From: Reichenbachiella ulvae
Lineage (GTDB): Bacteria; Bacteroidota; Bacteroidia; Cytophagales; Cyclobacteriaceae
Length of the DNA stretch: 64,000 nucleotides
Reading direction: 5' to 3'
Assembly (NCBI RefSeq): GCF_025833875.1
Contig: NZ_JAOYOD010000001.1
Location: forward strand, 3,720,001 to 3,784,000
The notes beneath the pieces were generated by a model, which saw only the letters and a program-made list of their open reading frames with translations, did not search any database and was not told the DNA's origin. The first letter of the stretch is position 1. Every line of letters begins with the position of its first letter. Shown in pieces: positions 45,430 through 54,855 of this stretch. Made by a program: the position numbers and the translations under genes.

Positions 45430-46185
45430 ATGATGGAGGAGCAAACACAAAAGAAAGAATGGTTCGATGAATGGTTCAATACCATTTACTACCATATTTT
45501 ATACAAAAACCGGAGTTACGAAGAAGCTGGCAAGTTCTTGGACAAGCTCATCCATTATTTTGAAATGCCTAAGGATGCCAAAATTTTGGATCTTGCTTGT
45601 GGTAAAGGGCGCCATTCGATCTATTTAAACAATAGGGGTTTTGATGTAACTGGTGTAGACCTATCGGAGCAAAACATCGCCTTTGCCCGACAAAAAGCAA
45701 ATGACTCGCTGCACTTCCACATTCATGATATGAGGGAGGTTTTTCAGCCTGCTACTTTCGATTATGTTTTCAACCTATTTACCTCCTTTGGTTATTTTGA
45801 TTCTAAAGAAGAAAACCTGGATGTAATTCGAGCCACCTGCGAATCTTTGAAACCTGGCGGGAAATTGCTTATCGATTTCCTCAATCCCTATGTAGTAATC
45901 AATCAACTGGTGAGCGAGGAAGACAAAACCATTGACAACATTCATTTCAAAATCACAAGGGAGCATACCAAAGACGACTATATCGTCAAAAACATCGAAG
46001 TGGATGATCATGGCCAGCATTTTGAATACATGGAAAAAGTAAAGGCGATCCGAAGAACAGATTTTTTGAACTATTTTGATCAAATTGGACTTAAGCTTTT
46101 GGACATATTCGGAGACTATCAACTCAATCCTTATATCAATGACCAATCTGAACGTTTAATCTTCGTCATTCAAAAACCCGCATGA
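45430..46185 (+). CDS. Class I SAM-dependent methyltransferase
   Basis: About 251 aa. The SAM-binding motif is 'AKILDLACGKGRHSIYLNNRG' (LDLACGKGRHS), followed by acidic 'VTGVDLSEQNI', motif II 'FDYVFNLFTSFGYF' and 'LKPGGKLLIDFLNPY'. Starts at one of two adjacent ATG codons (45430 or 45433); an ATG at 45409 would add seven residues. The substrate is unknown. It overlaps the ZIP transporter gene as ATGA, which indicates coupling. Confidence 0.88.
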   Translation: MMEEQTQKKEWFDEWFNTIYYHILYKNRSYEEAGKFLDKLIHYFEMPKDAKILDLACGKGRHSIYLNNRGFDVTGVDLSEQNIAFARQKANDSLHFHIHDMREVFQPATFDYVFNLFTSFGYFDSKEENLDVIRATCESLKPGGKLLIDFLNPYVVINQLVSEEDKTIDNIHFKITREHTKDDYIVKNIEVDDHGQHFEYMEKVKAIRRTDFLNYFDQIGLKLLDIFGDYQLNPYINDQSERLIFVIQKPA

Positions 46186-46925
46186 TCAAATCTGCTATCA
46201 TATTATTCCTTTCGGCCATGCTAGGTGGCCTACTAGCAATCAACTCTGTAGATGCTGTCAAAAGAAACATCAAGATATTGCTGGTTTTTGCGGGATCCTT
46301 TTTGTTCTCCATTACAGTCATTCATATTCTACCCGAAATCTTTGAAGCAGGAGACAACCATCTTCATATCGGACTCTTTATTCTGTTGGGTTTCTTTTTC
46401 CAACAGGTGCTGGAGTATTTTACCGACGGTGTAGAGCATGGACATATGCACCATCATCATCATGGAGAAAAGCACTCCAGCCTGAAAAGTCTATCCTTAA
46501 TCGTAGCGCTTAGTATTCATGGTTTGTTAGAAGGAACACTCCTGGCCCACCCAGAAAGTGTGCATGGCAATCATACCGAAGGAACTTTACTGGCAGGCAT
46601 CATCTTTCACAAGGTGCCGGCTGCTCTGGCTTTGATTTCGGTGCTTTCCTGTCAGTACCAGTCTCGAAAAACGCAACTGTTTCTGCTCACTATATTTGCG
46701 ATGGCTTCTCCTCTTGGATTATTTGCAGGGCATTTCATGGAGGATATTGGATGGATGGATCACGCCTCGATGACCTTTCTTTTTGCTTTTGTGTCAGGTA
46801 ACTTCCTACACATATCGACCACCATATTTATCGAATCTAGTCCTGAACACAGCTGGAGCACGAAAAAGCTTTTAATCAGCCTGCTGGGAGCGGGGTTGGC
46901 CGTACTGTCCGAGTTTTTGTTTTAG
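46182..46925 (+). CDS. ZIP family metal transporter
   Basis: A 247-aa inner-membrane transporter with eight helices. The metal-site motifs of ZIP proteins are present in helices 4 and 5: 'LSIHGLLEGTLLAHPE' and 'GIIFHKVPAALALIS'. The loop between helices 3 and 4 is His-rich (EHGHMHHHHHGEKH), as in zinc or iron transporters. It would move divalent metal ions, with zinc most likely. Coupled to the methyltransferase by an ATGA overlap. Confidence 0.92.
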   Translation: MIKSAIILFLSAMLGGLLAINSVDAVKRNIKILLVFAGSFLFSITVIHILPEIFEAGDNHLHIGLFILLGFFFQQVLEYFTDGVEHGHMHHHHHGEKHSSLKSLSLIVALSIHGLLEGTLLAHPESVHGNHTEGTLLAGIIFHKVPAALALISVLSCQYQSRKTQLFLLTIFAMASPLGLFAGHFMEDIGWMDHASMTFLFAFVSGNFLHISTTIFIESSPEHSWSTKKLLISLLGAGLAVLSEFLF

Positions 46926-47018: not shown

Positions 47019-47026
47019 TAAATTTG
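47019..47026 (+). promoter_or_regulatory. -7 element of the his operon
   Basis: TAAATTTG fits TAnnTTTG. A start near 47031-47033 would place the leader-peptide ATG (47045) 12-14 nt into the transcript. Confidence 0.5.
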
Positions 47027-47044
47027 CCTCGCAAGAAAATAATT

Positions 47045-47101
47045 ATGATTACTAACAGACAACATCATCACCATACAATGATCGCACAGGCGAGGTGGTA
47101 G
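47045..47101 (+). CDS. hisL: His operon leader peptide (18 aa, four consecutive His)
   Basis: ATG ORF of 18 codons, MITNRQHHHHTMIAQARW, with four successive His codons at 47063-47074 and a TAG stop at 47099. It lies between a promoter-like element and a terminator that precedes hisG, so it is a classic attenuation leader peptide: a ribosome stalls on the His codons when charged tRNA-His is scarce. It is too short for ordinary gene finders. Four adjacent His codons ahead of the his genes are very unlikely by chance. Confidence 0.88.
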   Translation: MITNRQHHHHTMIAQARW

Positions 47102-47161
47102 AGGTATGTCTATAAAAATATTTCACTAATCCCGTCTGATTAATTTTGGACGGGATTTTTT
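47087..47161 (+). promoter_or_regulatory. Transcription attenuator of the his operon
   Basis: The terminator stem AATCCCGTC (47128-47136) / GACGGGATT (47149-47157) runs into T6. An alternative antiterminator pairs CAGGCG plus GG (47087-47095, one bulged A) with CC-CGTCTG (47131-47138), which removes the terminator's 5' arm. The upstream antiterminator strand lies inside the leader ORF, 12 nt after the His codons. A ribosome stalled at His leaves it free, and one at the stop codon covers it. Confidence 0.85.
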
Positions 47162-47206
47162 GTTTATAGTCCCTCCAAACACTGAGAAGACATTAAATCA
47201 AAAACC

Positions 47207-48064
47207 ATGAGCAAGCTTAAAATCGCAGTACAAAAATCCGGAAGACTCAACGATGAATCAATCGACCTTCTAAAGAGCTGTGGTATCCACATCGACAATG
47301 GCAAAGACCAATTGAAAGCCAGTGCTTCCAACTTTCCTCTGGACGTACTTTACCTCCGCAATGGAGACATTCCACAGTATGTAGAAGATGGTGTGGCGGA
47401 TATAGCCATAGTCGGCGAAAATCTACTCGAGGAAACAGAAAATGATATTGAAACGGTTAGACAGCTGGGCTTTTCTAAATGCAAGTTGTCTCTGGCTGTG
47501 CCAAAGGAGGTTGACTATCCTGGCGTAGAATTTTTTGAGGGAAAGAAAATTGCAACTTCCTACCCTAATACACTGAAAAAATTTCTTGCTAAAAACAAGG
47601 TAAATGCAGACATCCACGTGATCAAGGGCTCTGTGGAAATCGCGCCAAACATTGGTCTGGCTGAAGGGATTTGTGACCTGGTTAGCTCAGGTAGCACCTT
47701 GTTCAAAAACGGGCTAAAAGAAACAGACCTGATCCTCAAATCTCAGGCAGTATTGGTTAAAAATAAAAACCTGACTGTAGAACAAGAGGAGCTATTGGAC
47801 ACGCTTTTGTTTCGTCTAGATGCAGTGCAGAAAGGGAAAAAATCCAAATATGCACTGATGAATGTACCGAATGACAAAATCGAGCAGGTCATTCAACTAT
47901 TGCCGGGGATGCGCAGCCCAACGGTACTGCCATTGGCAGAGGAAGGCTGGAGTTCGGTGCACACGGTGATCGGCGAAGGAGAATTTTGGGAAATCATTGA
48001 CCAGCTAAAAGCAGCTGGAGCAGAAGGTATTTTGATCGTTCCAATCGAAAAAATGGTACTATGA
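47207..48064 (+). CDS. hisG: ATP phosphoribosyltransferase
   Basis: First step of histidine synthesis: ATP plus PRPP to phosphoribosyl-ATP. At 285 aa it is the long form with a C-terminal regulatory domain, so it needs no HisZ and is probably feedback-inhibited by histidine. Motifs: 'LKIAVQKSGRLNDESIDLL', 'DIAIVGENLL', and the PRPP loop 'GICDLVSSGSTLFKNGLKE'. First structural gene behind the attenuator; overlaps hisD by 4 nt (ATGA). Confidence 0.97.
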   Translation: MSKLKIAVQKSGRLNDESIDLLKSCGIHIDNGKDQLKASASNFPLDVLYLRNGDIPQYVEDGVADIAIVGENLLEETENDIETVRQLGFSKCKLSLAVPKEVDYPGVEFFEGKKIATSYPNTLKKFLAKNKVNADIHVIKGSVEIAPNIGLAEGICDLVSSGSTLFKNGLKETDLILKSQAVLVKNKNLTVEQEELLDTLLFRLDAVQKGKKSKYALMNVPNDKIEQVIQLLPGMRSPTVLPLAEEGWSSVHTVIGEGEFWEIIDQLKAAGAEGILIVPIEKMVL

Positions 48065-49362
48065 TAGTTGCTATTAATCCAAAAAGAGAAGAGTGGGAGC
48101 AACTGGCTGAGCGCCCTGCCCTGGAGCAGCAAAATCTGCAATCCACAGTCGATGAGGTATTCAAGTCAATCCAATCCGATGGGGATAAGGCTGTACTCGA
48201 ATTCACTAAGAGATTCGACAATGCTACCCTGATCAACACCGTAGCTGGTGAAGAAGAACTACAGTATGCCGATCAATTGGTCGGTGGTGAATTAAAGGAA
48301 GCGATCGAGCTGGCTGCAAAAAATATTGAGGCCTTTCACACGGCCCAAAAACCACAAAGAGTGGAAGTAGAAACGGCTCCTGGGGTTACTTGCTGGCAAG
48401 AAGCCAAAGCCATCCAAAAAGTGGGCATTTATATCCCTGGAGGCACAGCTCCCCTATTTTCTACTGTGCTCATGCTAGCACTTCCAGCGAAAATTGCTGG
48501 ATGCAAAGAAATCGTGCTATGTACGCCTCCCGGCCCAGACGGCTCAATCAATCCTGCCATTTTGTTTGCAGCGAAGTATGCAGGCGTCAAACAGATTTTT
48601 AAAGTAGGTGGCATTCAGGCCATCGGGGCGATGACATTTGGAACAGAGTCGATTCCGAAAGTGGATAAGATCTTTGGTCCGGGCAACCAATATGTGACTG
48701 CCGCCAAGCAGCGTGCTGCACAATTGGGCGTGGCGATCGATATGCCTGCGGGTCCTTCAGAGCTGTTGGTGATGGCTGACGAAACGGCTGTGCCTGAATT
48801 CGTGGTATCGGATCTACTTTCTCAAGCCGAACACGGTGTTGACAGTCAGGTGATCTGTGTTGTCAAAAGCGAGGAACAAGTCGAACCCATACAAAAGGAA
48901 CTAGAGATACAATTGGCTTTACTCCCAAGGAAAGAAATAGCTGAAAAGGCGATAGAAAACTCCAAAATCATCTGTTTACCAGAGGATCAGGACTGTGTCG
49001 ATTTCATCAACGAATACGCACCAGAGCACTACATCCTTTGTGTGCAGAATGAAGATTTCTATCTGGACCAAGTGATTAATGCGGGTTCTGTTTTCATCGG
49101 TAATTATACGCCGGAGAGTGCAGGTGATTACGCATCTGGTACCAATCACACCCTACCAACCAATGGTTACGCTAAATCATACAGCGGTGTGAATCTGGAT
49201 GCATTCATGAAGAAGATCACTTTCCAAAAAATCACTGAAAAGGGGATATTAGGAATCGGTCCAGCCATCGAGCAAATGGCCACAGCAGAGCAACTGGATG
49301 CACACAAAAATGCGGTGACCAAAAGACTGGCATACCTCAACTCGAAAAATCTAAAATCATGA
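48061..49362 (+). CDS. hisD: Histidinol dehydrogenase
   Basis: Zinc- and NAD-dependent enzyme for the last two steps, L-histidinol to L-histidine. 433 aa, with 'GIYIPGGTAPLFSTVLMLALP', 'VDKIFGPGNQYVTAAKQ', 'DMPAGPSELLVMAD', 'DLLSQAEHGVDSQ' with zinc and catalytic residues, and 'YASGTNHTLPT' near the end. Overlaps hisG and hisC by 4 nt each, so the three are translationally coupled. Confidence 0.98.
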   Translation: MIVAINPKREEWEQLAERPALEQQNLQSTVDEVFKSIQSDGDKAVLEFTKRFDNATLINTVAGEEELQYADQLVGGELKEAIELAAKNIEAFHTAQKPQRVEVETAPGVTCWQEAKAIQKVGIYIPGGTAPLFSTVLMLALPAKIAGCKEIVLCTPPGPDGSINPAILFAAKYAGVKQIFKVGGIQAIGAMTFGTESIPKVDKIFGPGNQYVTAAKQRAAQLGVAIDMPAGPSELLVMADETAVPEFVVSDLLSQAEHGVDSQVICVVKSEEQVEPIQKELEIQLALLPRKEIAEKAIENSKIICLPEDQDCVDFINEYAPEHYILCVQNEDFYLDQVINAGSVFIGNYTPESAGDYASGTNHTLPTNGYAKSYSGVNLDAFMKKITFQKITEKGILGIGPAIEQMATAEQLDAHKNAVTKRLAYLNSKNLKS

Positions 49363-50405
49363 ATGTGAGAGATCTTTTGAGAGCCAATATCAAGGCAATG
49401 ACTCCCTACAGTTCAGCACGTGATGAGTTCGACAATGTAGCGGATGTTTATCTGGATGCTAATGAAAATCCATTTGAGAATGGCATGAACCGCTATCCAG
49501 ATCCTTATCAAAAAGAGGTCAAAAAACGTCTGAGCGAGATCAAAGGGATTGCTCCAGAGAAAATCCTGCTAGGCAATGGTAGTGACGAAGTACTGGACAT
49601 CATCTTTCGTGCCTTTTGCGAACCTAGATTGGACAATATCATCTCTCACAACCCGAGCTATGGTATGTATCCGGTTTTGTCTGAGATCAATGATATCGAA
49701 CTGCGCAAGGTCAATCTGGAAGAAGGCTTTCAGCTAAATTCCCAGGCGATGATTGATGCTTCCGACGAATATACGAAGCTATTTTTCATCTGCTCTCCTA
49801 ACAATCCATCGGGCAACTTGCTACAAAAGGATGAGATCAAAAAAATCCTGGATTTGAAGAGAGGAATCGTAGTGATCGATGAGGCATATATCGACTTTGC
49901 TGAGGAAAAATCATGGATACACGAGCTAGACCATTACCCAAATCTCGTCGTTTGTCAGACACTATCTAAGGCCTGGGGATTGGCTGGATTGAGAATGGGT
50001 ATGTGTTTCGCATCGGAGGAAATCATAGCTGTATTCAATGCCATCAAGCCGCCGTACAACGTGAATGTGCTTTCACAAAAGGCAGCATTAGAAGTATTGA
50101 ATAATGAGCCGGCATTTAAGGAACAAGTAGCTATCATTCTAAGCGAAAGAATAAAGGTAATTGCTGCATTGGAAGCCGCCAGTTGTGTTTCGAAGGTTTT
50201 TCCTACCGTTTCCAATTTTGTACTGGCTAGAGTAGACAATGCCAAGGCTTTGTATAATTTTCTATTGGAACGAAAAGTGATTGTAAGGAATCGCTCGACC
50301 CAGTATCTATGCGAAGAAAGTCTGCGTTTCACGATTGGTACGCCAAAGGAAAATGATCGATTGATAGACGGAATTAAAGAATATGAAAGTGCTCAAGGCG
50401 AATAG
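49359..50405 (+). CDS. hisC: Histidinol-phosphate aminotransferase
   Basis: PLP enzyme of fold type I that converts imidazole acetol phosphate to histidinol phosphate. 348 aa, with 'YLDANENPFENG', 'LLGNGSDEVLDI', 'SPNNPSGNLL', 'VIDEAYIDFA' and the Schiff-base Lys in 'TLSKAWGLAGLRMG'. Overlaps hisD by 4 nt; 24 nt before hisB. Confidence 0.97.
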   Translation: MNVRDLLRANIKAMTPYSSARDEFDNVADVYLDANENPFENGMNRYPDPYQKEVKKRLSEIKGIAPEKILLGNGSDEVLDIIFRAFCEPRLDNIISHNPSYGMYPVLSEINDIELRKVNLEEGFQLNSQAMIDASDEYTKLFFICSPNNPSGNLLQKDEIKKILDLKRGIVVIDEAYIDFAEEKSWIHELDHYPNLVVCQTLSKAWGLAGLRMGMCFASEEIIAVFNAIKPPYNVNVLSQKAALEVLNNEPAFKEQVAIILSERIKVIAALEAASCVSKVFPTVSNFVLARVDNAKALYNFLLERKVIVRNRSTQYLCEESLRFTIGTPKENDRLIDGIKEYESAQGE

Positions 50406-50429
50406 CCCAAGGCTGCAAGCAACAGAAAA

Positions 50430-51563
50430 ATGAAAAAAGTATTATTCATAGATAGAGACGGCACCCTGGTATTGGAACCACCAGTTGATTACCAACTGGA
50501 CTCTTTGGAGAAGCTGGAATTTTATCCAGGCGTATTCCAGTGGATGTCTAAAATCGCCAAGTTAGGATACGAATTGGTCATGGTGACCAATCAGGATGGT
50601 TTGGGTACAGACTCCTTTCCAGAGGACACCTTCTGGCCAGCACACAACAAGTGCATGAAGGCCTTTGAAAACGAAGGGGTGATCTTCGATGATGTAAAGA
50701 TCGATCGCAGTTTTCCTGCTGATAATGCACCTACTCGCAAGCCTAGAACAGGCATGCTAACCGAATACATGGATGGCAGTTATGATTTGGAAAACTCTTT
50801 CGTCATTGGCGATCGAATCACCGATGTGGAGCTTGCGAAGAATCTGGGCTGCAAAGCTATTTTTATCCAAAACCAAGAAGGTTTAGGTGCTGAAGAAATT
50901 TCTTCTAAGGTGGAAGAGTTGCAGAGCTGCATCGCCCTCACCACTACGGATTGGGAAGATATATACAATCTGGTAAGTCGAGGATCCAGAAAAGGTAGCG
51001 TAAAACGCACCACCAAAGAAACGGATATCGACATAGAAGTAGAACTAGACGGTACAGGTCAGGCTGATATCGATACGGGAATCAAATTCTTTGATCACAT
51101 GCTGGACCAGATTGCCAAGCATGGCCTTCTCGACTTGAAAATAAAAGTGAAAGGTGACCTGGAGGTAGACGAGCACCACACCATCGAGGATACTGGAATA
51201 GCGCTGGGCGAAGCTGTTTTGGAAGCCCTCGGCAACAAGAAAGGAATCGAACGCTATGGTTTCTGCCTTCCGATGGACGATAGCCTGTGTCAGGTAGCAC
51301 TGGATTTTGGTGGTCGTAACTGGATTGTCTGGGATGCCGAATTCAAAAGAGAAATGGTAGGCAAGATGCCAACAGAGATGTTCTTTCACTTCTTCAAATC
51401 TTTTTCGGATGCGTCAAAATGCAACCTGAATATCAAAGCGGAAGGAGACAATGAACACCACAAGATCGAAGGCATTTTTAAAGCCTTTGCTAAGGCTATC
51501 AAAATGTCAGTGAAACAAGACAAAGACAAAATGATTTTACCTTCTACGAAAGGAATGCTATGA
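50430..51563 (+). CDS. hisB: Bifunctional histidinol-phosphatase / imidazoleglycerol-phosphate dehydratase
   Basis: A 377-aa fusion. The N-terminal HAD phosphatase (about 1-165) has the DxD motif '[10 protein letters not shown]' and '[10 protein letters not shown]'. The C-terminal dehydratase (about 180-377) has '[18 protein letters not shown]', '[16 protein letters not shown]' and '[18 protein letters not shown]', the manganese-binding His motifs. The fusion is the enterobacterial and Bacteroidota-type arrangement. Overlaps hisH by 4 nt. Confidence 0.97.
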
Positions 51564-52147
51564 GCAAAATAGTAATTATAGATTACGGTGCAGGCAATGT
51601 CAAATCTGTGAAATTCGCCCTGGATCGATTAGGTATCGGGTATGAGCTATCGCGCTCTGCGGAGACCATTCAGTCTGCAGACAAACTGCTTTTCCCTGGT
51701 GTGGGTGAAGCCAGCTCGTCGATGAAGGCACTGGAAGAATATGGGCTTACCGAAGTAATCAAAGATGCCAAGCAGCCGTTTTTAGGCATTTGTTTGGGCA
51801 TGCAGATGATGTGTGAGTCTTCAGAAGAAAACGACACCAAGGGGTTGGGAATTTTTCCTCTTCCGGTGAAATTATTTGACAGCACAGATGTCAAAGTACC
51901 TCACATGGGCTGGAATCAGGTAGAAGATTTACAGACACCCATTTTCGATGGTCTAGAGGAAAAGGAGTACATGTATTTCGTGCACTCTTACTATGTGCCA
52001 GATTCGGAATGGACCATTGCCAAAGCGAACTATCCGGCCCCTTTCAGTGCCGCACTTCACAAGGATAACTTCTATGGCTGCCAGTTCCACCCTGAAAAGA
52101 GCGGGTCTTTTGGTCAGAAGATTTTAGAGAATTTTGTTAGAATGTAA
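51560..52147 (+). CDS. hisH: Imidazole glycerol phosphate synthase, glutaminase subunit
   Basis: Glutamine amidotransferase that supplies ammonia to HisF. 195 aa with the nucleophile Cys in '[13 protein letters not shown]' near residue 78 and His/Glu in '[15 protein letters not shown]' near the C-terminus. ATG inside the end of hisB. In this operon it is separated from hisA by a two-gene toxin/antitoxin-like insert. Confidence 0.97.
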
Positions 52148-52148
52148 T

Positions 52149-52158
52149 CGGTCGACCG
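52149..52158. promoter_or_regulatory. Palindrome upstream of the antitoxin-like gene
   Basis: CGGTCGACCG, a perfect 10-bp palindrome directly after the hisH stop and 43 nt before the antitoxin ATG. It could be an autoregulatory operator of the pair. Confidence 0.3.
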
Positions 52159-52200
52159 TCTAATAGAATGATTGATCAAAGAAATTAGTATTTTTATGTT

Positions 52201-52440
52201 ATGAGCACAAAGGATTTAATAAAGGAAAAACTAGACCAAATTCATGAAGAAGAGGTTCTCTCCAATATTCTTGAAATGCTCCAGTTGGAAATTGAGCTAA
52301 ATAATGAGGAAATACCTCTAAAATTGACCCAATCCCAAAAAGCAGCGATAGAAGAAGGATTGGACGATGTTGCCAACGGCCGTGTTTTAACACATGAAGA
52401 AGCCAAACAAAAAATCGATAAGTGGTTCGAAGGAAAATAG
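52201..52440 (+). CDS. Antitoxin-like small protein
   Basis: A 79-aa acidic helical protein (KDLIKEKLDQIHEEEVLSN...). The C-terminal 'RVLTHEEAKQKIDKWF' is the phrase typical of small antitoxins of the 'addiction module' group paired with ParE/RelE toxins. The N-terminal half is probably the dimerisation or DNA-binding part. Its stop overlaps the toxin-like gene by 19 nt. It would neutralise the toxin. The pair sits between hisH and hisA. Confidence 0.78.
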   Translation: MSTKDLIKEKLDQIHEEEVLSNILEMLQLEIELNNEEIPLKLTQSQKAAIEEGLDDVANGRVLTHEEAKQKIDKWFEGK

Positions 52441-52718
52441 TTTGGTCTCAGATTGCATTAGAGGATAAAATCCAAATTTATAGTTATTGGTTTAATGAAT
52501 TGAACAATCACAGCTATGGTAAAAAACTAGAGAAGCTGTTCAATAAATCAATCGAAACTCTAGCTATTTACCCTCGATCCGGTCGTCTAACAGAACATAA
52601 ATACACTAGGGCAAGAGTAGTCAAACATTACATTCTGTATTATCAATTTTCAGAAAACACCATTACAATATTAAGAGTTTGGGATGCTCGACAAGATCCC
52701 AATAAACTAAAGTTATAA
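52422..52718 (+). CDS. RelE/ParE-like toxin
   Basis: A 98-aa basic protein with the RelE/ParE fold pattern: 'VWSQIALEDKIQIYSYWF', 'IETLAIYPRSGRLTEHKYTRARVVKHYILYYQ' (key phrase YPRSGRLTEH), and the C-terminal 'ILRVWDARQDPNKL'. Starts at GTG within the antitoxin gene (an inferred start). The mRNA-cleavage or gyrase-poisoning role cannot be told from sequence. The stop overlaps the hisA ATG by one base (TAATG), so hisA translation may depend on toxin translation. Confidence 0.82.
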   Translation: MVRRKIVWSQIALEDKIQIYSYWFNELNNHSYGKKLEKLFNKSIETLAIYPRSGRLTEHKYTRARVVKHYILYYQFSENTITILRVWDARQDPNKLKL

Positions 52719-53440
52719 TGATTCGTATTATTCCCGCAATAGATTTAATAGATGGCAAATGTGTCCGATTGACGAAGGGCGACTATGACCAAAAGAAAGT
52801 ATACAATGAGAATCCTCTGGAAGTAGCCAAGGAATTCGAAGATGCTGGTATCAAGTATCTTCATTTGGTGGATCTGGACGGGTCGAAAGCCAGAGAGATC
52901 AAAAACGCCGCTGTGCTGGAAAACATCGCTGCGAATACTGGACTAACTATCGATTTTGGTGGAGGCATTCGATCTGACAAGGACATAGACATTGCTTTCA
53001 ATGCTGGAGCTACTCAGGTCAATTTGGGTAGTGTCGCTCTGGAGAACAAAACGCTCTATGGCGAATGGCTGAAAAAGTTTGGAGCTGAAAAGATCATCCT
53101 CAGTGCAGATTCTACTAACAGAAAAATAGCCATCAACGGCTGGCAGGAAGAATCTCAAGTCGATCTTTTCGATCTGATCAAAGAATATGAAGCAATGGGT
53201 AACCAATACATGGTTTGCACCGATATCAGCAAAGATGGAATGTTGCAAGGCATAGCCGTAGACTTATACAAAGACTTAATGGCTACTTTCCCTTCCCAAA
53301 AAATAGTCGCGAGCGGCGGAGTTAAGGACATCAAAGATGTAGAAGCTGCCGCTGCTCTGAACATGGATGGCATCATCATCGGTAAAGCCATCTACGAAAA
53401 CAAAATTTCACTGAAACAACTGGAAGCCTATGCTGACTAA
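52718..53440 (+). CDS. hisA: Phosphoribosyl-formimino-AICAR phosphate isomerase
   Basis: A 240-aa TIM barrel that isomerises ProFAR to PRFAR. N-terminal '[24 protein letters not shown]' with catalytic Asp, central '[14 protein letters not shown]', C-terminal '[13 protein letters not shown]' and '[13 protein letters not shown]'. ATG overlaps the upstream toxin-like gene stop. It overlaps hisF by 11 nt. Confidence 0.97.
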
Positions 53441-54185
53441 GAGAATCGTACCCTGCCTGGACATCAAAGATGGACGTACCGTGAAAGGCGTCAACTTTGT
53501 AAATCTAAGAGATGCAGGTGACCCGGTAGAACTGGCTGCCATCTACTCTGAGCAAGGGGCGGATGAGCTCGTGTTTTTGGACATCACAGCAACAGGTGAC
53601 GGCAGAAAAACGACAGCTGAGCTGGTAGAAAAGGTTGCCGAGAAAGTCAATATTCCATTCACCGTAGGAGGAGGAATCAAATCTGTGCAGGATGTCTATG
53701 AACTACTGCACAGGGGAGCAGACAAGATTTCTATCAACTCTTGGGCGGTAAAAGAACCAAAAGTACTCGACGAATTGGCCTTGCAGTTTGGGAGTCAGTG
53801 CGTGGTACTGGCTGTAGATGCCAAACAAATCGATGGACAATGGAAGGTTCACCTGGTAGGCGGCAAAGTGCCAACTGAAATTGATCTGTTCGATTGGGTA
53901 AAAGAAGCCGAAAGCCGTGGTGCTGGCGAAGTGCTATTTACCTCTATGGATCATGATGGATCGAAAAATGGCTTTGCCAATGAAGCCTTGGCAAAACTAT
54001 CGGACATGGTGAGTATTCCGATCATTGCGTCTGGGGGAGCAGGAAGCATTCAGGATTTTGCAGATACCTTTGTTGAAGGAAAAGCAGACGCGGCATTAGC
54101 GGCTAGTGTTTTTCACTTCAAAGAAATCGAAATACCAACCTTGAAAAACGAATTGAAAAAGCAGGGAATACCTGTAAGAATATAA
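53430..54185 (+). CDS. hisF: Imidazole glycerol phosphate synthase, cyclase subunit
   Basis: A 251-aa TIM barrel that uses ammonia from HisH to make IGP and AICAR. '[22 protein letters not shown]' (Asp catalytic), '[13 protein letters not shown]', '[14 protein letters not shown]' (second catalytic Asp) and '[15 protein letters not shown]'. Overlaps hisA by 11 nt; 76 nt before the chosen hisIE ATG. Confidence 0.98.
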
Positions 54186-54205
54186 CAGACGAGAGTCCAG
54201 AGTCG

Positions 54206-54263
54206 ATAGTCAATAGATTGACAAAACTCGACTGCTGACTATGGTCTACAGACTATTGACTAT
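54206..54263. repeat. Inverted repeat that covers the hisIE start codon
   Basis: ATAGTCAATAG (54206-54216) and CTATTGACTAT (54253-54263) are exact complements. The second arm includes the first two bases of the hisIE ATG (54262). The spacer contains further AGTC/GACT units. Confidence 0.6.
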
Positions 54264-54855
54264 GAATATCGATTGGAATAAAACTGAAGGCCTAGTGCCA
54301 GCCATCATTCAAGATGCGAAAACGAAAAACGTTTTGATGCTAGGCTATATGAATGAAGAAGCTTTGACTCAAACTCAGGAGAGTGGCAAAGTGACTTTCT
54401 ACAGCCGCACCAAAGAAAGGCTCTGGACCAAAGGCGAAGAGAGTGGTAATTTTCTAGAACTGGTAGATATAAAACTGGACTGTGACAATGACACGCTCCT
54501 AGTTCAAGCCAATCCAATCGGACCTACTTGTCACAAGGGTACAGATACTTGCTGGGCAGAAGAAAACAAATCGAATTTCAGCTTTCTTTCCAAACTGGAG
54601 GCAGTAATCAAAGACCGCCATGATAACCCAGACGAGAAGTCTTACACCTCTTCCCTATTCAAAAAAGGAATCAACAAGGTCGCCCAAAAAGTAGGAGAAG
54701 AAGCCGTAGAAGTGGTGATAGAAGCCAAGGACAACAGCGAAGAATTATTCCTAAACGAATCTGCGGATCTTCTTTATCACTATATGATTTTGCTACGTGC
54801 CAAAGGTTATGATCTGGAGGATGTGGTAAAAGTTCTCGAAGAAAGACACAAGTAA
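54262..54855 (+). CDS. hisIE: Bifunctional phosphoribosyl-AMP cyclohydrolase / phosphoribosyl-ATP pyrophosphohydrolase
   Basis: A 197-aa fusion of HisI (about 1-105; 'VLMLGYMNEEALTQT', 'FYSRTKERLWTKGEESGN', 'CDNDTLLVQANPIGPTCHKG', zinc Cys) and HisE (about 107-197; 'KKGINKVAQKVGEEAVEVVIE', 'ESADLLYHYMILL'). It performs steps two and three. I choose ATG 54262 (MNIDWNKTEG); the longer ATG at 54241 adds seven residues made by repeat sequence. A strong terminator follows and closes the operon. Confidence 0.96.
   Translation: MNIDWNKTEGLVPAIIQDAKTKNVLMLGYMNEEALTQTQESGKVTFYSRTKERLWTKGEESGNFLELVDIKLDCDNDTLLVQANPIGPTCHKGTDTCWAEENKSNFSFLSKLEAVIKDRHDNPDEKSYTSSLFKKGINKVAQKVGEEAVEVVIEAKDNSEELFLNESADLLYHYMILLRAKGYDLEDVVKVLEERHK

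Follow-up and report, generated by a model that had tools for sequence, protein, structure and literature searches.

A predicted His-codon attenuator ahead of the Reichenbachiella histidine operon and its counterparts in Bacteroidota

The histidine operon of the Reichenbachiella-like genome studied here is very probably controlled by a ribosome-mediated transcription attenuator responsive to charged tRNA-His. We analyzed a 64,000-nucleotide stretch of this genome (5.56 Mb in 12 contigs), hereafter the window, the HisG protein of which has Reichenbachiella as its closest named relatives (86%, among the 80 of 328 named GTDB matches that were kept). The case is built from sequence elements, mutually exclusive predicted pairings, conservation and covariation, all of which are documented below. 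An earlier note made from the letters of this DNA had read a His-codon attenuator here, and that reading is supported by the anatomy of the leader, by folding with the ribosome at successive positions, by conservation before hisG and by pairings that persist although the sequences change. The region contains a leader ORF with a His run, a terminator before the first gene and an antiterminator predicted, under an assumed ribosome footprint, to exclude that terminator. By all features testable in sequence, the leader would belong to the leader-peptide attenuators.

The his operon of the window is complete. The first gene of the operon under this predicted control is hisG (47207-48064, forward strand; Pfam HisG and HisG_C), which starts 105 nt past the leader stop, and hisD, hisC, the bifunctional hisB, hisH, hisA, hisF and hisIE follow on the same strand at 48061-54855, as identified by Pfam domains and gene order. 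A ParDE-like toxin-antitoxin pair lies between hisH and hisA (52201-52440 and 52422-52718); the toxin alone was matched (PF05016, E 4.7e-11), and the preceding 79-aa ORF is the presumed antitoxin. The upstream neighbor of the leader is a ZIP-family metal transporter gene at 46182-46925, whose own sequence contains HMHHHHHGEKH. The leader ORF itself, MITNRQHHHHTMIAQARW, occupies 47045-47101 of the forward strand and runs from an ATG at 47045-47047 to a TAG at 47099-47101. The sequence bears out what the earlier note had claimed of it, i.e., 18 codons with four His codons in a row (CAT CAT CAC CAT, 47063-47074), which are the candidate sensor.

Promoters of Bacteroidota share the -7 box consensus TAnnTTTG. 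A candidate box of this type, TAAATTTG, is located at 47019-47026 on the forward strand, 36 nt upstream of the first His codon; it fits the 47019 boundary that the earlier note had drawn for the element. Of the 85 leaders of the window's sequence type (class A, defined below), 74 have a TAnnTTTG-type box 10 to 80 nt upstream of the first His codon (median, 37 nt; 5 to 95% range, 32 to 42). In the controls, such a box was present in 4 of 85 windows taken far upstream and in 66 of 1,700 shuffles. From the position of the box, we infer a transcription start near 47033, about 12 nt before the leader ATG.

Four strands describe the alternative pairings in the window, all on the forward strand: strand 1 (the run of His codons), strand 2 (CAGGCGAGG, 47087-47095), strand 3 (CCCGTCTG, 47131-47138) and strand 4 (the terminator's 3' arm). 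Folding and covariation mark strand 2, which lies within the leader ORF, as the upstream arm of the antiterminator, and strand 3 can partner either strand 2 (antiterminator) or strand 4 (terminator), the two structures being mutually exclusive in predicted pairing. Both are found where the earlier note had placed them. The predicted intrinsic terminator (47128-47161; -16.4 kcal/mol) combines a 12-bp stem at 47128-47157 and a loop of 6 with a T-run reaching to about 47161, and in the antiterminator a single bulged A interrupts 8 pairs, the duplex taken by itself having -11.1 kcal/mol. The fold of 47030-47165, a check that the same note had proposed, yields -35.6 kcal/mol with a z score of -4.15, a stability equaled by none of 200 shuffles. 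However, its statement that no separate pause hairpin could be seen did not survive: folding and the swap test detailed below point to a 1:2 hairpin at 47057-47111 (-17.1 kcal/mol), which may act as a pause or anti-antiterminator structure. The His-codon side of this hairpin (47057-47072) pairs with 47094-47111 and encloses an inner hairpin at 47082-47093, and its 3' side spans the leader stop and beyond, using part of strand 2.

We then placed on the RNA a ribosome with an assumed footprint that reaches 18 nt upstream and 12 nt downstream from the first base of the codon in the A site. With the footprint on any of the four His codons and the RNA extended to just past strand 3, 8.8 pairs of 2:3 are expected (-17.1 kcal/mol), the loss of 1:2 upon stalling being partly built into the footprint constraint. 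A footprint on the stop codon leaves 0 pairs of 2:3, in line with the earlier proposal that strand 2 sits inside the leader ORF where a ribosome finishing it would mask it, and the complete RNA then has 11.5 pairs of 3:4. The ribosome-free RNA shows 14.4 pairs of 1:2 plus 11.5 pairs of 3:4 when complete, and near-equal 1:2 and 2:3 (5.5 versus 4.2 pairs) when strand 3 has just emerged. In the complete RNA, the terminator still beats the antiterminator in stability even with a stalled ribosome. Therefore, the switch must be kinetic and the order of synthesis matters, which is likewise decisive in classical attenuators. Measured from where the last His codon begins, strand 2 starts after 15 nt in the window and after a median of 9 nt in class A; with strand 2 only 9 nt off, most relatives would have it freed only by a stall on the earlier His codons.

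Promoter activity, ribosome stalling, termination and the response to histidine are predictions from these features, and together they outline the following mechanism. Transcription would begin about 12 nt upstream of the leader ATG. With ample His-tRNA, the ribosome would reach the leader stop and mask strand 2 (47087-47095), strand 3 would pair with strand 4, and transcription would end near 47161. With scarce His-tRNA, the ribosome would stall at the four His codons with its front edge just short of strand 2; the stall would break the 1:2 hairpin, 2:3 would form before strand 4 is made, and the polymerase would enter hisG. If the leader were left untranslated, the 1:2 hairpin would compete for strand 2 and make termination likelier.

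The conservation of this arrangement was assessed on 170 hisG loci from four sources, namely 50 matches in 59 relatives including the window's own genome (the 30 best, then the other 20), 80 named loci retained from the 328 matches in GTDB species genomes, and 40 loci chosen by hand from those listed as matches in a sample of the phylum. Once 5 duplicates and 1 short locus had been discarded, 164 remained. A leader ORF with at least four His in six codons precedes hisG in 131 of the 164 but in 0 of 520 flank windows (both strands) and 1 of 820 shuffles. The relaxed threshold of at least three His in six codons retrieves 147 of 164 loci, versus 16 of 520 flank windows and 25 of 820 shuffles. 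Between the leader stop and hisG, a terminator was detected in 108 of the 131 strong leaders, which occur in at least 12 family codes of the relatives and the phylum sample. The earlier note had suggested that the attenuator might be lineage-specific. This holds insofar as no Rfam family matches at its gathering score, but the leaders are spread through Bacteroidota and are not special to Cytophagales.

The remaining 33 of the 164 loci have no strong His leader, and within the same family but outside the genus, a strong leader was found in 19 and a terminator after the leader in only 11 of 27 loci from the 59-relative set (four more such loci, from the hand-picked phylum sample, were left out of the 27). 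Part of the family must thus work otherwise. In the Psychroflexus/Mesohalobacter-type loci L065, L073 and L092, a short leader-like ORF persists with at most two His in six codons, and no terminator was detected.

The window's own sequence type, class A, comprises 85 loci with the terminator arm CGTYTGA or a near variant. The window has the CGTYTGA arm together with a complementary CAGRC-like strand in its leader ORF, and strand 2 begins inside the leader ORF in all 85 loci. Another 29 terminator-bearing loci have different sequences. Each strand was paired with the partner strand from another species in a swap test, which ignores kinship. Native pairing was equaled in 0 of 5,000 permutations for 1:1' and in 2 of 5,000 for 2:3 among 33 dereplicated class A loci, and in 0 of 5,000 for either pairing among the 29 loci with other sequences. 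Both the His codons and the pairings are thus conserved in relatives, as the attenuation reading of the earlier note implied.

Covariation was scored on 32 class A sequences. The 12 pairs of the terminator are paired in 96.6% of cells, with two-sided changes in 25 cells, a count reached by 0 of 500 shuffles; these changes involve 4 of the 12 pairs, which is not above shuffles (167 of 500 had as many). Likewise, 91.8% of antiterminator cells are paired and 9 carry two-sided changes, a number that 0 of 500 shuffles reached; 2 of the 8 pairs are involved, which is again not above shuffles (311 of 500). The covariation scores of 3:4 and 2:3, calculated without regard to kinship, exceed all 500 shuffles. 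RNAalifold, run on A2, recovered the terminator alone and not the 1:2 hairpin.

A covariance model built from 26 class A leaders, in which the terminator is the only structure and the remainder is sequence, was used to search for further copies. The single strong match in the own genome is the window's leader (E 1.9e-15), a copy of which is in the training set. The second match (L198; E 0.0036) was rejected as a plain terminator, located after an ORF that we take to be methionine-synthase-like. The third-best match is L199 (C1:5016383-5016453), preceded by a sequence presumably resembling a SAM-type riboswitch. Among 296 genomes of the class, 148 match the model at E<=0.01. Because most of the listed ones are weak and terminator-like, we relied on the strong matches only. 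All of the 32 best (E up to 2.8e-6; checked in two lots of 13 and 19, with training-set species possibly among them) lie directly upstream of hisG. Among the weaker matches, terminators from elsewhere in the genomes are mixed in, and the two inspected away from hisG (G464 and G137) proved to be plain terminators.

Existing Rfam models do not capture the element. At gathering score, the window contains one tRNA and no leader family, T-box (RF00230) and Bacteroid-trp (RF01692) included, and neither of these two has a match at E<=1 in 15 loci searched. The His_leader model (RF00514) has no match in the window and a single sub-threshold one in the 15 loci (29.7 versus the required 49 bits; E 0.17). 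In all, 17 sub-threshold matches were returned from the 15 loci at E<=1, some of them Thr_leader, Phe_leader and His_leader over or near the leaders; Thr_leader and Phe_leader appear in three of the 15 loci, neither near gathering. Judged by these searches, the window leader falls outside the Rfam his-leader family.

Other leader types were also observed. Several members of the window's family (L014, L018, L019, L022, L142, L143, L149 and others) and L164-L166 have a His leader (e.g., HHFHHSS and then a stop) without a terminator. In these, a short hairpin (TTCCTC/GAGGAA, TCTCTC/GAGAGA or ATCGCC/GGCGAT) lies directly past the His codons and usually covers the stop codon. Across 18 such terminator-less loci, the stop-codon hairpin and the pairings with the hisG start were no better than swaps (1,301, 3,415 and 2,073 of 5,000). 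In L139-L141, L144 and L156, strand 2 seems by eye to include the leader stop (GGTAAGC- or GGTAGGC-like), with a terminator arm of the GGCTTAC type as its apparent match.

A tree of 86 of 104 HisG proteins, from which 18 Chryseobacterium sequences were dropped and whose rows had been chosen by HisG similarity, places these types in context. Class A leaders require 5 changes on it, compared with a shuffled mean of 21.2. One starred group of 9, made up of Reichenbachiella and two near kin, is entirely class A. Another of 19 holds most other family members, whose leaders mostly have no terminator, and includes one class A leader (L016). In this sample, selected by similarity, leader type thus tracks hisG type to a large extent. 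Horizontal transfer of the operon together with its leader is possible; the 86-row tree offers no resolved join between the Reichenbachiella group and the flavobacterial rows.

Most class A relatives have a fifth strand close to the start codon of hisG, so that the strand set of the earlier note, although right in its 2:3 and 3:4 pairings, was incomplete for this leader type. Strand 5 usually reads TTTACTCAGRC or similar, and its 11 bases complement the 5' arm and loop of the terminator (GTCTGAGTAAA). The predicted 3:5 duplex reaches -10 kcal/mol or lower in 74 of 85 class A loci (class mean, -13.4 kcal/mol) and beats shuffled strand 5 by more than 2 kcal/mol in 82 of 85 (shuffled class mean, -5.8 kcal/mol). 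The window departs from its class in this respect: the corresponding position on the forward strand, CTGAGAAGACA (47182-47192), holds a degenerate copy with -6.4 kcal/mol, close to the shuffled mean. Its congeners range from weak (L003, -7.6; L005, -7.0 kcal/mol) over partial (L008, -11.3 kcal/mol) to full duplexes (L002, -15.7; L007, -14.2 kcal/mol).

The end of strand 5 lies a median of 15 nt before the hisG ATG (SD 2.0) in the 74 loci, a count that omits weaker versions such as that of L063, whose best site is 167 nt from the ATG. The SD of its distance to the terminator is 13.4 in the same loci, and the 26 dereplicated loci give SDs of 2.0 (ATG) versus 10.3 (terminator). This anchoring to the start codon suggests a link with translation. 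Over 32 sequences, 89.5% of 3:5 cells are paired, compared with at most 43.6% for slid partners, and 7 of 11 pairs show two-sided changes (as many in 6 of 500 shuffles; at most 5 with slid partners). The five loop pairs alone are paired in 85.9% of cells, against at most 52.4% for slid partners, and their covariation score is above those of shuffles and slid partners.

These features suggest that, in class A as a whole, strand 3 or the terminator loop might pair with strand 5 in read-through mRNA and lower hisG translation unless strand 2 holds strand 3, an extension that we regard as plausible but short of probable. It would have precedents, since attenuator variants that sequester the ribosome-binding site have been described (PMC9413887) and the uORF leader of vmlR is reported to use both transcription and translation attenuation (PMC9226507). 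Besides the degenerate copy in the window, several results count against it. Among the five loop pairs, 4 have two-sided changes, no better than slid partners, and the 29 loci whose terminator sequences differ have no strand 5 (993 of 5,000 permutations were as good). In 33 loci, the terminator hairpin averages -17.0 kcal/mol, versus -11.0 kcal/mol for the best fold with strand 4 blocked, which may contain pairs other than 3:5; the latter fold is at least as stable in four (L055, L057, L063 and L106). With the terminator some 6 kcal/mol more stable, 3:5 is expected to be mostly transient or a loop-tail pseudoknot. We advance only tentatively, and with slightly more reserve still, the fuller proposal that class A leaders are five-strand switches in which the antiterminator, the terminator and a start-codon-proximal strand contest the 5' arm and loop of the terminator. 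One leader ribosome would then set both termination and hisG translation, and strand 5 would be decaying in the window's species, leaving termination alone. The same complementarity of strand 5 to the terminator arm and loop could let the terminated leader RNA act in trans on mRNAs bearing strand 5, as trpL of Sinorhizobium, an attenuator RNA, is known to do on its own targets. This appears improbable, as a search of three genomes with TTTAYTCAGAC found the strand 5 of hisG in two (the pattern missed the G351 variant), the few other matches with an ATG 13 to 15 nt downstream (L173 and L184) look by eye like chance, and no convincing second strand-5 target emerged in these genomes.

Two further explanations start from the neighboring ZIP transporter gene, and we give hardly any credence to either. 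The terminator lies on the same strand downstream of that gene, which ends at 46925, and might merely end its transcription, the leader being a chance ORF. Yet the promoter box, His leader and terminator recur before hisG, where all of the 32 best model matches also lie, and the strands of leader and terminator covary. Alternatively, a His-rich leader peptide next to a ZIP gene could itself be the functional product, e.g., a metal-binding one linked to the transporter. This is just as hard to sustain, given that the His run is kept between classes while the other residues of the peptide differ, that the surrounding RNA pairings are kept as well, and that the leader accompanies hisG. Attenuation governed by charged tRNA-His remains the reading that we favor for the window.

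One near counterpart is the his leader of gamma-proteobacteria (RF00514; hisL of Salmonella and E. coli), which likewise combines a His-codon peptide, 1:2, 2:3 and 3:4 alternatives and hisG as the first gene. The E. coli leader peptide has seven His; unlike that system, the window has four His and other strand sequences, and most class A loci add the fifth strand. Bacteroid-trp, by its name presumably a leader-type attenuator, is also a cis-regulatory RNA of Bacteroidetes but, again by name, belongs to tryptophan genes and matches neither the window nor the 15 loci. It is listed as such an RNA by Weinberg et al. 2010 (PMC2864571). In Flavobacterium psychrophilum, a structured 5' element before hisG, with no Rfam match and conserved in Flavobacteriaceae, has been noted along with clues to leader-peptide attenuation before amino-acid operons (PMC9723704). 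The shared position before hisG, the lack of an Rfam match and the occurrence in other Flavobacteriaceae make it probably the same element; the relevant passages describe neither a leader peptide nor pairing strands, the fifth included, for hisG and state conservation within Flavobacteriaceae (PMC9723704). Prior art is partial and consists, in outline, of the F. psychrophilum element (PMC9723704).

Outside the phylum, His attenuators with leader peptides of 3 to 5 His codons, a terminator and an antiterminator are described in the Bacillus cereus group, Eubacteriales and Erysipelotrichales, and the B. cereus one is called independently acquired (PMC9413887). They resemble the present leader in these parts and in the mechanism inferred for them, but belong to Firmicutes (PMC9413887), and the string "Bacteroid" is absent from the main text of that paper. 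Attenuator-like leader ORFs are mentioned in general terms for Bacteroides thetaiotaomicron in a passage of PMC7366714. A survey with Rfam models suggests, in its statements on amino-acid attenuators, that these are gamma-proteobacterial in origin and seldom moved (PMC3766115). An account of the his genes of the superphylum mentions attenuation once, for enterobacteria (PMC8305728), and hisG leaders are named in gamma-proteobacteria in PMC4833913. The open-licence literature searched yielded no account of the pairing strands, the fifth included, of any his leader from Bacteroidota. What appears to be new here is the fifth strand of class A, which lies some 15 nt upstream of the hisG ATG, pairs with the 5' arm and loop of the terminator with covariation and perhaps has a translational role.

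To conclude, our analysis depicts a predicted histidine attenuator that Rfam models have missed and that occurs ahead of hisG in many families of a phylum other than that of the gamma-proteobacteria. This makes his regulation in Bacteroidota directly testable, and a covariance model is now available. Leaders with a terminator, without one and with a start-codon strand form, in bacteria that rarely use Shine-Dalgarno pairing, a natural set in which shifts between transcription and translation attenuation may be studied.
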